The notes under the pieces: generated by a model
Databases searched by the model: none
Told to the model about the DNA's origin: nothing
The model's input: only the letters and a program-made list of their open reading frames with translations
Shown: positions 41,670 through 57,159 of the stretch, piece after piece
How positions within the stretch are numbered: the first letter of the stretch is position 1
How the letters are laid out: each line of letters begins with the position of its first letter
Program-made: the position numbers and the translations under genes
Assembly (NCBI GenBank): GCA_016788885.1
Contig: JAEURX010000013.1
Coordinates: forward strand, 1-59,819
DNA length: 59,819 nucleotides
DNA from: Nitrospira sp.
GTDB lineage: Bacteria; Nitrospirota; Nitrospiria; Nitrospirales; Nitrospiraceae
Reading direction: 5' to 3'

Positions 41670-42149
41670 ATGGGTAAGACGATGGTGGCAGTATTTTTCG
41701 GCCTGGTCATGCTGGTGGCTGGGGCATCAGGCGCATACGCGCTGCAAGCTGGCGGTGTCGAAATCGGTGATTTAGATACCGGTTCTGTCGTTGGCCAACC
41801 GTTTAAAGAATTGATTGTGGATGCGGAATTATACGCCGTCGAAATCGGCAATATGAAGGCGTGGTATCCGCCGGTGACTGTGATTGATTTCAAGGTGCGG
41901 CCAGGTCGGCCCGTGGTGTTGAAAGTTACGAACAATTCGTCTGCTGATCATGGGTTCCAGATGACCGATCCTGTGAATGCTGCTTCGCCGTTTGTGATGA
42001 AGGCGGAAGTGGTGCTCAAGCCGGGCGAGACGAAGTATATCGGAGTTCCGACCAGTGATATGTTCAATGCGACCCAGGGGAATACCTTGACCTATCGCTG
42101 CCATTTGCACCCGGCGCATGTCGGTGGCAAGCTCGTCATGATCAAGTAG
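41670..42149 (+). CDS. Exported cupredoxin
   Basis: 159 residues with a signal peptide (to about GAYA). Cupredoxin fold: PVVLKVTNNSSADHGFQM (the N-terminal His ligand in DHG), LKPGETKYI, and the C-terminal copper loop YRCHLHPAHVGGKLV with Cys, His and later His. This is a type-1 copper protein of the nitrosocyanin/plastocyanin-like group; it could shuttle electrons in the periplasm. The axial ligand is not certain from sequence. Strong promoter, ribosome-binding site and terminator make it a monocistronic unit, independent of its neighbours. Confidence 0.85.
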   Translation: MGKTMVAVFFGLVMLVAGASGAYALQAGGVEIGDLDTGSVVGQPFKELIVDAELYAVEIGNMKAWYPPVTVIDFKVRPGRPVVLKVTNNSSADHGFQMTDPVNAASPFVMKAEVVLKPGETKYIGVPTSDMFNATQGNTLTYRCHLHPAHVGGKLVMIK

Positions 42150-54222: not shown

Positions 54223-55476
54223 GTGTATCGAAAGATCGTTCTCGACAACCGGTTGCGCATCGTAGCCGAATTGCTGCCGACGTTGAAGTCCGTCACCATC
54301 GGGATCTGGGTCAACGTCGGATCGCGTGATGAGCTGCCGGGTGAAGAAGGGCTGTCTCATTTTCTCGAGCACATGTTTTTCAAGGGGACGCGAAGTCGAA
54401 CCGCGACGCAGATTTCCCGTGAGATTGATGCGCTCGGCGGAGAGATGAATGCGTTTACCACCCGGGAGACGACGACCTTTTACGTCAAAGTGCTGGATCA
54501 GCAATTGGAGGCGGCCCTGGAGCTTCTCTCAGACTTGTTCTACCGGTCTCGGTTTGAGTCCAAGGAAGTCGAGAAAGAGAAGCAGGTGGTCTTGGAAGAG
54601 ATCCGGATGGTTCAGGATGATCCGGAGGACCTGGTCCAAGAACTCCATATGAAGCACACGTTGGGCAGTCATCCGTTAGGACGGCCCATCCTCGGGCAGG
54701 CTCCTAGAATTCAAGCGTTGGGGCGCAAAGACCTCGTGTCCTATGTCGGCTCGCACTATGATCCGGAGCGCACGGTGATTTCTGTGGCAGGCAACTTTAC
54801 CTGGAGGCGACTGGAAACGTTGTTGTCGCGGTATTTTTCCGCATCCCACAAGGGCGTGGCGGTCAAGCCAAGCCGTCGCCCGCCGGAGGTTCGTGGGGGA
54901 GTGCTGGTAAAGCGTAAGTCGCTGGAGCAGGTGCACTTGTGTTTAGGGTTGCAGGGACTGAGCGCGGGGCACGAGGATCGGTATGCCGCGCATGCCTTGA
55001 ACGGCGTGCTGGGCGGAAGCGTGAGCTCGCGGTTATTTCAAGAGGTGCGAGAGAAGCGCGGGCTTGTCTACTCGATCTATTCGTTCTTGTCGACGTACTC
55101 GGATGGAGGTATGACCACGGTGTATGCGGGCACCCGCCCCAAAGAAGTGGAGCGTGTGGTGGAGGTCGTGTGCCGTGAACTCAAGAAGCTTCGCACGAAC
55201 GGTATTGATCGGAAAGACCTGGCTCGCGTCAAGAATCAAATGAAGGGTAGCCTCATGCTCAGTCTCGAAAGTTCCCATAGCCGGATGAGCAAGTTGGCAA
55301 AGGATGAGTTGACGCAGGGGAGCCATGTGTCTCTCGAGCAGATGATAGGGGAAATTGATCGAGTGACCACAGACCAGGTGTATCGGGTTGCGCAAACCCT
55401 GTTGGACCAACGGTGTCTTGCGATCACGGCGCTTGGACCGATCCCAGCGAACAGTCTTCAGTCGTTTGCCTCATAA
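54223..55476 (+). CDS. M16 zinc metallopeptidase
   Basis: 417 residues from GTG 54223. Inverted zinc motif HFLEH at residues 46-50 with a downstream Glu in EKEKQVVLEEIRM completes the site. Typical pattern: NRLRIVAELLPTLKSVTIGI, WVNVGSRDELPGEEGLSHFL, GGEMNAFTTRETTTFYVKVL. Single-chain M16 with N- and C-terminal lobes, like processing peptidases or PqqL/YmxG. No signal peptide. It is next to pnp as in many bacteria (the ymxG arrangement). Confidence 0.93.
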   Translation: MYRKIVLDNRLRIVAELLPTLKSVTIGIWVNVGSRDELPGEEGLSHFLEHMFFKGTRSRTATQISREIDALGGEMNAFTTRETTTFYVKVLDQQLEAALELLSDLFYRSRFESKEVEKEKQVVLEEIRMVQDDPEDLVQELHMKHTLGSHPLGRPILGQAPRIQALGRKDLVSYVGSHYDPERTVISVAGNFTWRRLETLLSRYFSASHKGVAVKPSRRPPEVRGGVLVKRKSLEQVHLCLGLQGLSAGHEDRYAAHALNGVLGGSVSSRLFQEVREKRGLVYSIYSFLSTYSDGGMTTVYAGTRPKEVERVVEVVCRELKKLRTNGIDRKDLARVKNQMKGSLMLSLESSHSRMSKLAKDELTQGSHVSLEQMIGEIDRVTTDQVYRVAQTLLDQRCLAITALGPIPANSLQSFAS

Positions 55477-55850
55477 TAGATCATCGGGCCTGGCGGGATT
55501 CGGTGGAAGCTGCGCTCTTGTGGGCAAACGATACAGGTCAGAGCGGTCTCGATGGGAGCGGCTAACTGATTGAAGAACAACGGTCTCGCTCTCAAGGGTT
55601 GAGCCAGAATTTTCGAAAAACATTTTCTTGACACGTTTGGTGGATTTAAGTACCATGGCCGCGTTTTCATCCTATACGTTCGAATTTATTTCGACTGCAT
55701 TACAGGGGAAGGTAAGCAGAGAGAAAGGGGGTGTGGTTCGCACTTCCTCCTGCTAGCGCGTTCTCTCATTTTTTGTTTTTTTGAACTCTTTTTTTGGATA
55801 CTGTGATTCAACGGTTCTCTGGTCATCATTTTTCCAAGGAGGGTAGGGTT
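55477..55850 (+). other. Promoter and long leader of the secreted-protein pair
   Basis: 374 bases without a gene. A promoter TTGACA (55628-55633), 17-base spacer, TACCAT (55651-55656) is present. The following leader of about 190 bases is AT-rich and T-tract-rich (TTTTTTGTTTTTTTG, then CTTTTTTTG) and ends in AAGGAGG (55836-55842). No hairpin stands out before the T-tracts; a leader attenuator is possible. No RNA gene recognised. Confidence 0.55.
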
Positions 55851-56363
55851 ATGAATAGGGTCGGAATTCTAGCCGCACTTGCAGTCTCCTCCGTTGTCGG
55901 CTTGTTGACCGCCGGTGTCTCGATGGCGGCCGACGCTCCAGCCGGGGGCGGACCCAGCGAAGTCACTACGGGCAGCGGAAAGTTTTTTAAGGGTGAGCCT
56001 ACGAACACACTGAAGGGGCGGGTCTGGTCGCAGTGGGCGGACAACCCTGATGGTGAAATTTTGTTCGGCATTCAATATTGGAACACGGGTGATCCCGCCT
56101 CAGGAGAGGGTGGTGGTCGTTCGTCAACCTCCATGGATGTGAAGCCGCCGGATCCTCTCTTCACCTGTTGTGCCTGGGGTTACACGGGCGGTACGGACAG
56201 GAATAATCCTTACGCCGGTTGGCACCATGCTCAGACGACGGTTCGCTTGGCTGTGAAGGACAAGGGCTTGATGGATCAGATCATCAAGGCCTCGCAAGAG
56301 CTTGTTGCGATGGAAGTGACCCTTGACGGTCGCACTATTACTGGTTTTAAAGTATTGAAGTAG
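55851..56363 (+). CDS. Small exported protein (secreted-pair member 1)
   Basis: 170 residues. Signal peptide cut near AADA (about 25). The mature part has Gly/Asn/Asp-rich strands, TNTLKGRVWSQWADNP, GEILFGIQYWNTGD, a TCCAWGYTGG Cys-Cys, and LVAMEVTLDGRTITGFKVLK at the end. It looks like a compact beta fold. The segment around TLKGRVW recurs as TLHGRVI in the next gene. Strong AAGGAGGG, strong promoter, 57 bases from next gene: probably highly expressed and co-transcribed. No family recognised. Confidence 0.65.
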   Translation: MNRVGILAALAVSSVVGLLTAGVSMAADAPAGGGPSEVTTGSGKFFKGEPTNTLKGRVWSQWADNPDGEILFGIQYWNTGDPASGEGGGRSSTSMDVKPPDPLFTCCAWGYTGGTDRNNPYAGWHHAQTTVRLAVKDKGLMDQIIKASQELVAMEVTLDGRTITGFKVLK

Positions 56364-56420
56364 ATTTTATTCGCGAGGCGACATTCTTGAGACTCTTTTG
56401 TCTTCTTTAAGGAGGATGTG

Positions 56421-57095
56421 ATGATGAAGCTTCAAAAGCAAGGGTGGACCTTCATGGCTGCCGCAGCTTTGGTGGTAAGTTTTGCCTCCACTGCGCTGGC
56501 CATCGAGGCGTTCCAAGAGAGGTTTGAGTGGGGAGATCTGAGCAAGCCCACCACGTTGCATGGCCGAGTAATCATTTTGGATCCGTATGATGAGGCCGTG
56601 TGGCTCAACATCGCGGTGTTCGGCGGCAATGCTGAGAGCGGATTGTGGTGGCAGAGAGTCCATCCCGGAAAGAACCTCAAGTTCTATCCGGCCGACAAGA
56701 ACATCTGGGAGCAGCTGAAAGCGATGGCCCGTCCGCATTCAGGTCCGGCTGCCGCGAAGGAAGTTCCTCCTGGATCTCCGACCACGCTGGTTGAGTTTGT
56801 AGCTCAAGAGACCGAGCAGAACCATCGCGTGATCACCTCCGTGAAGAAGCTTAATGACAATGCTGGCGAGATGGGGAAGCCAAAGAGCATCTCCGCCCTT
56901 CGCTTGAAGGAGTGTGAGGGGAAGACCGAAGTGGATGCGCCTTGCTATGCTGCAAAGCAGGCATTGAACACTTCTCCGAAGACTCCAGATGGCGCCAATT
57001 TGCCCCTGCAGTATGATGTCTTGTTGCCGGATGGCAAGCCGATTGCCAATCTGATTCCCTGGACTGCCCACTACAACCGGGGTAGCAAGCACTAA
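56421..57095 (+). CDS. Exported protein (secreted-pair member 2)
   Basis: 224 residues from ATG 56421 (ATG 56424 is also well placed after AAGGAGG). Signal peptide cut near TALA. The mature chain begins with IEAFQERFEWGDLSKPTTLH-type sequence, GRVIILDPYDEAVWLNIAVF, then GLWWQRVHPGKNLKFYPADK, a Lys/Glu-rich helix, and a C-terminal LPLQYDVLLPDGKPIANLIP. A pair of Cys (ECEG ... DAPC) is near 170-180. The TTLHGRV part matches member 1, suggesting a duplicated fold. Function unknown. A strong terminator follows. Confidence 0.65.
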   Translation: MMKLQKQGWTFMAAAALVVSFASTALAIEAFQERFEWGDLSKPTTLHGRVIILDPYDEAVWLNIAVFGGNAESGLWWQRVHPGKNLKFYPADKNIWEQLKAMARPHSGPAAAKEVPPGSPTTLVEFVAQETEQNHRVITSVKKLNDNAGEMGKPKSISALRLKECEGKTEVDAPCYAAKQALNTSPKTPDGANLPLQYDVLLPDGKPIANLIPWTAHYNRGSKH

Positions 57096-57124
57096 GTCTC
57101 GCAGGTTATTGCGCTCATGAAAGA

Positions 57125-57159
57125 AGGCGGCACTCCGAAAGGGGTGTCGCCTTTTTTTT
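57125..57159. terminator. Terminator between secreted-pair and mutS
   Basis: A 12-bp stem with two wobble pairs and a GAAA tetraloop, followed by eight T on the plus strand. On the minus strand TTCTTT follows, so it may also end the mutS transcript. Confidence 0.88.

Follow-up and report, generated by a model that had tools for sequence, protein, structure and literature searches.

An adjacent pair of predicted exported proteins and its conserved promoter in the order Nitrospirales

Between the gene of an M16 peptidase and an oppositely oriented mutS gene, a Nitrospira genome carries two short tandem genes, here termed P1 and P2, whose products are predicted to leave the cytoplasm. This arrangement raises the question of what such a pair is, how widely it is kept, how it is expressed and what it might do. 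The genome (G000; 3.92 Mb, 75 contigs, 99.8% complete) is represented here by a window of 59,819 nucleotides (C13:1-59819), the whole stretch of DNA that was analysed, in which the M16 gene occupies positions 54223-55476 and mutS runs from 57204 onward; the names of neighboring genes were read from their sequences. The features of the locus, in window coordinates, are as follows:

55563..55575, plus strand: IHF-like element 65 bases ahead of the -35 hexamer; its sequence, TAACTGATTGAAG, differs from YAANNNNTTGATW at 2 positions
55618..55627, plus strand: conserved AAACATTTTC block, possibly UP-element-like, directly upstream of the -35 hexamer
55628..55656, plus strand: sigma-70-like promoter, consisting of TTGACA, a 17-base spacer ending in TTTAAG, and TACCAT
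55663..55850, plus strand: untranslated leader containing T-runs, approximately 190 nt long when counted from a putative start
55836..55842, plus strand: Shine-Dalgarno sequence AAGGAGG of P1
55851..56363, plus strand: P1, 170 aa, predicted exported, with a conserved core at residues 54-170 and a CC pair at 106-107
56409..56415, plus strand: Shine-Dalgarno sequence AAGGAGG of P2
56424..57095, plus strand: P2, predicted exported, 223 aa when the conserved start is used, with an OB-fold-like domain at about residues 41-146 (numbering from 56421) and a variable tail
57126..57159, plus strand: intrinsic terminator, a GAAA-loop hairpin followed by T8, between P2 and the convergent mutS

The first-pass annotation had described the two genes as tandem secreted paralogues. 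Both ORFs are confirmed and, as judged by eye, both N-termini resemble signal peptides, so that Sec-type export is predicted for P1 and P2 alike. The codon at 56424 appears to be the better start of P2, because it is an ATG in 67 of 73 loci, compared to 31 of 73 for the codon at 56421. The motifs PTNTLKGRV (P1 residues 50-58) and PTTLHGRV (P2 residues 43-50, numbering from 56421) are both present as annotated, but their supposedly similar distances from the mature N-terminus are only roughly alike, at approximately 24 and 16 residues from the cleavage sites placed by eye. Each gene exists as a single copy in G000; one extra match to the P2 query, at an E-value of 0.3, runs through three stop codons and was taken as noise.

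A scan of species genomes with P1 identified 125 relatives, the best 80 of which were examined. The record titles of these 80 name Nitrospira, Nitrospiraceae, Nitrospirae/Nitrospirota and, in one case, "uncultured Nitrosospira." P2 lies directly downstream of P1 in 78 of these 80 Nitrospira loci, and the remaining two stop before P2. Where the flank is long enough, all 73 loci have the M16 gene upstream on the same strand, and 70 of 71 have a convergent mutS downstream. The kept surroundings of the pair in Nitrospira comprise pnp, the M16 protease gene and convergent mutS. In an even draw of Nitrospirota genomes, P1 was present in 95 of 295, every one of them belonging to three families (f1, f2, and f3) of one order, and P2 was present in 26 of 43 selected genomes, likewise restricted to f1-f3. 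P1 was found neither in the 15 genomes listed for the remaining families of the same class nor in any of four genomes of f40, a further family of the same order, in which a query with P3 (a protein described below whose query detects P2 elsewhere) likewise gave no match. Wherever it could be checked, P1 and P2 are an adjacent, single-copy pair across the three families; they would represent a two-gene unit special to the order Nitrospirales that is presumably co-transcribed. Searches of the open-licence literature led to no paper describing the pair, which is real, conserved and, as far as these searches show, undescribed.

The conservation of the promoter is the strongest and most striking result of the analysis. 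In the window, TTGACA at 55628 and TACCAT 17 bases further on agree with the consensus at 10 of 12 positions. All 77 Nitrospira upstream regions of sufficient length (the window and 76 loci with 330 bases upstream; 4 of the 80 loci fell below this length and were left out) conform to one of two closely related patterns, both built as TTGAC[AT]...GTA[CG][CG][AG]T. TTGAC does not vary among 52 representatives, their spacer measures 17 (46 cases) or 18 bases (6 cases), and the TT, AG (A in 96%), TA and final T columns around the -10 hexamer are invariant or nearly so, while the AAACA just before the -35 hexamer is kept at 87-100% per column; most of the remaining columns shown in the promoter alignment are far less constrained. 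Beyond the genus, a promoter composed of TTGAC and a TANNNT hexamer was identified at every one of 34 loci belonging to other genera and families (22 + 12, with L188 and L133 stemming from the same genome), and [AG]GTA[CG][CG][AG]T was read from 33 of these 34 sites. The near-duplicate or cut loci L123, L124, L135, L136, and L140-L142 were all left out of the 22-locus set and some of them also out of the wide P1 and P2 alignments. The strong promoter reported by the first-pass annotation is therefore confirmed in its TTGACA and proves to be conserved far more widely than one window could indicate (77/77 Nitrospira and 34/34 other loci).

The motif also appears to belong to this pair alone. TTGACA-N14-16-AGTASSAT occurs once per genome in five of five whole genomes, always before P1, with 0 matches in the control, and the patterns used revealed no other gene of G000 that shares the promoter; allowing up to 2 mismatches gave 16 sites in G000 compared to 9 in the control. 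The AAACATTTTC block has one exact copy in G000. As the promoter and IHF patterns were drawn after viewing the alignment, all of these counts are descriptive, with shuffles, reverse-orientation counts and whole-genome counts serving as controls. The TTNAG preceding the -10 hexamer (55646-55650) is nearly invariant in Nitrospira, which exceeds the ordinary need of a sigma-70 spacer, and it is possibly the site of a regulator. A palindromic arrangement of the 12 bases preceding the -35 hexamer was considered and rejected, as the counts of complementary pairs do not rise above those of column shuffles, with the exception of a single pair (20 vs. 12.1 of 52).

Further upstream, the sequence YAANNNNTTGATW, which we take to match the IHF consensus on one strand, was found with no more than one mismatch in 37 of 51 Nitrospira upstream regions when the best position within 85 bases was taken, compared to 6.9% of shuffled sequences and 3 of 51 regions in the opposite orientation (one of the 52 representatives was left out for having too little upstream sequence). 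In 23 of those 37 cases, the site starts exactly 65 bases before the -35 hexamer. Most f2 loci are without an IHF-like site, and G000 contains four matches to the HU/IHF family. At the level of sequence, a consensus at a fixed upstream distance resembles an IHF-assisted sigma-70 promoter, and IHF may control the promoter of the pair. Work on IHF at two promoters, ilvPG and phage lambda PL, is cited in the reference list of PMC1784095.

The distance from the -10 hexamer to the ATG of P1 is 194 nt, and the first-pass annotation had suggested that an unusual 190-base leader with two T-tracts may regulate the genes. The length of about 190 nt holds, whereas the window leader contains three T-runs of 6 or more rather than two. 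Such a leader might be an attenuator or a riboswitch that controls the operon: its length is roughly conserved (135-260 nt), the window leader folds better than its shuffles (z about -2.4 to -2.7), and its T-runs come after a hairpin. Yet leader sequence is not conserved, folding z-scores average 0.0 over 53 leaders, the hairpin region alone reaches a z of -1.3, T-runs of at least 6 are almost universal in the window's clade but scattered elsewhere, and a search of the whole window against Rfam yielded no family. No conserved RNA element emerged from the folding of the 53 leaders or from the Rfam search of the window, regulation through the T-tracts is not supported, and an attenuator or riboswitch is considered very unlikely, though the leader may matter.

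Ribosome-binding sites and terminator agree with the earlier description of both as strong, since AAGGAGG precedes both genes and the terminator GGCGGCACTCC-GAAA-GGGGTGTCGCC-T8, which a first pattern scan did not list, has a folding energy of -29.7 kcal/mol (z -6.8). High expression had been deduced from these signals and the TTGACA. The codon adaptation of P1 (0.798) and P2 (0.815), with ribosomal-protein genes averaging 0.794, does not set the pair apart from other genes and lends no support to high expression. Elsewhere in the window, a 159-aa exported-looking ORF (41670-42149, plus strand) has the top codon adaptation among 55 window ORFs. The main text of the N. moscoviensis transcriptome paper contains no tag in NITMOv2_43xx-44xx, the range estimated for the locus from its map position. 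NITMOv2_2496, named in the text of PMC6606698 among the top N. moscoviensis transcripts, resembles P1 and P2 in being an exported-type protein of unknown function from a nitrite oxidiser; by its number it would belong to a different locus.

Sequence searches against Pfam, NCBIfam and the PDB gave no significant match for either protein. Confidence in the AlphaFold2 models is low (mean pLDDT of 47 for P1 and 54 for P2), and both exhibit the order strand-strand-strand-helix-strand-strand, which is that of an OB fold. The P2 model matched SilF with a Foldseek E-value of 2.9e-4, and VIA-align likewise ranked SilF best (Z 9.5, 2.2 A over 74 residues), followed by CusF, single-strand-binding proteins, tRNA-synthetase domains and others, most of which we recognise as OB folds. 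P2 is therefore predicted to be an OB-fold protein, with the five-strand barrel order present and Z up to 9.5 in a model whose pLDDT is only 54. The P1 model, with the same strand order, reached a best Z of 3.0 (PrgE) and a best Foldseek E-value of 0.19, which lends an OB fold of P1 no comparable support; immunoglobulin chains with Z of about 2 dominate the matches to this model and were dismissed as meaningless. An assignment of P2 to DUF6152 (PF19649) was also discarded, as the sub-threshold matches from one P2 member (E 0.1) and one P3 member (E 0.23) are far below significance, the gathering score was not reached and P2 itself had no match.

CusF and SilF are periplasmic metal chaperones with an OB fold, and CusF needs Met/His ligands. 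As these two are the best fold matches of P2 (Z 7.4-9.5), and as P1 carries a vicinal cysteine pair at residues 106-107 (window 56166-56171) that is kept in f1 and f2, P2 could, together with P1, act as a periplasmic metal carrier with the cysteines as metal site. Against this, the wide P2 alignment has no invariant Met or His column past the signal peptide and thus lacks the conserved ligand set; P2 also differs from CusF and SilF in its longer tail and shares only about 11-13% identity with them. In addition, OB folds of many functions score nearly equally, the cysteine pair is replaced in all eight f3 sequences of P1 that were read, and the identified neighbors are not metal genes. A role as metal carrier is consequently judged improbable.

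A relative of P2 was encountered as a weak match in genome G165 (L139:1417-1794, minus strand; relatives L143-L162). This protein, P3, is a solo exported-type protein of about 125 aa. HHalign aligned it to the P2 barrel with probabilities of 98.6-98.9% (E 5e-16 to 4e-17), which makes the predicted homology of the two firm. The P3 family, defined here, belongs to Nitrospirales and differs from P2 in consisting of a single domain, in having no P1 partner and in being encoded elsewhere. The P3 query matched in 104 of 120 relatives, many of the matches being P2 itself; P3-like genes were seen in f2, f3 and several, though not all, genera of f1, and in the window's genus the query found P2 only.

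The relationship between P1 and P2 themselves is less clear. BLASTP revealed nothing significant (E 0.27). The HHalign probability was 4.6% with the first alignments, 24% with f2 and f3 members added, 41% for the mature parts and 45% for the cores; a global alignment that included the signal peptides gave 78% and was discounted, the values without signal peptides being 29% and 10%. The local alignments span the C-terminal half only and miss the LKGRV/LHGRV motif on which the proposed paralogy had been based. Moreover, P1 shows no match to P3, the firm relative of P2 (0.3-0.4%). These results would suit two unrelated proteins that merely share an operon and whose motifs are a short convergent strand element, a reading to which we grant a chance not far below even. 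On the other hand, the P1-P2 profile score of 29.2 exceeds reversed-profile controls and all 42 decoy profiles of flanking genes (maximum 19.0 for P1 and 18.0 for P2), and the strand order of the two models is identical. Remote homology of P1 and P2 is regarded as probable but unproven, and the paralogy of the first-pass annotation persists in this weakly supported form.

Nitrospira are major nitrite oxidisers, and the distribution of the pair was compared with that of NxrB, for which TIGR03478 was chosen as an assumed stand-in; no match reaches its curated cut-off, and strong matches below it (approximately 140-250 bits) were counted. An NxrB-like gene was found in 33 of 50 P1-bearing genomes, in 1 of 10 genomes of the same order that lack P1 and in none of 15 genomes from the other families of this class; for the order alone, Fisher's test gives p 0.0015 with relatedness ignored. 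In G000 itself no such match was found (TIGR03478, E up to 1e-10), whereas the N. defluvii-like genome G055 has one; repeated nxr copies were perhaps lost in the assembly of G000. The tie between the pair and periplasmic nitrite oxidation is only suggestive and is confounded by phylogeny; it may be accidental, because the association runs along phylogenetic lines and no NxrB-like gene was found in many genomes, G000 among them. In its strictest form, the pair would be a dedicated periplasmic part of nitrite oxidation in Nitrospirales: two exported barrels, expressed from a unique promoter kept across the order, that assemble with or service NXR or its electron carriers and that relatives unable to oxidise nitrite lack. 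This form seems unlikely. An identification of P1 or P2 with NXR-T of anammox bacteria was set aside, as NXR-T is described as a haem-containing four-helix bundle (PMC8387239).

P1 and P2 could also be a general envelope pair of the order that is engaged in the upkeep of cell wall or outer membrane and has nothing to do with nitrite oxidation. They are present in nearly every f1-f3 genome regardless of whether NxrB was found, and 17 of the 50 P1-bearing genomes are without it. However, NxrB may have been lost in fragmented assemblies, so that its absence means little, and f40, although a member of the same order, has neither P1 nor a strong NxrB match (0/4 each). We consider a general envelope function possible, at clearly less than an even chance.

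The explanation adopted here, a strongly transcribed exported pair serving periplasmic nitrite oxidation, is as a whole tentative and held at somewhat under an even chance. In this model, P1 and P2 would form a two-gene operon special to Nitrospirales, in which a strong sigma-70-like promoter (TTGACA/TACCAT with its A/T block) would drive steady, high transcription, usually aided in Nitrospira by an IHF-like site that would bend the DNA about 65 bp ahead of the -35 hexamer. Near-ideal ribosome sites would serve both genes, and Sec-type signal peptides would export both products. P2 would consist of a small barrel of the OB type and a variable tail. P1 probably contains a barrel that has diverged but retains this strand order, interrupted by a long insert in which two of the three families carry the vicinal cysteine pair. 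Our best guess is that the two proteins would act jointly as an abundant soluble periplasmic accessory pair, for binding or scaffolding, of the nitrite-oxidation machinery; we infer the high abundance, the partnership and the link to nitrite oxidation.

The adjacency of P1 and P2 and their near-constant promoter across the order suggest an important job in the envelope. To our knowledge, the helpers of the periplasmic nitrite oxidoreductase of Nitrospira are poorly known, and a nearly universal, order-specific pair of predicted exported proteins is a candidate for localisation and for co-purification with this enzyme. In addition, the promoter is far better conserved than the surrounding non-coding DNA and could be of use for the genetics of these bacteria, for which few tools exist.
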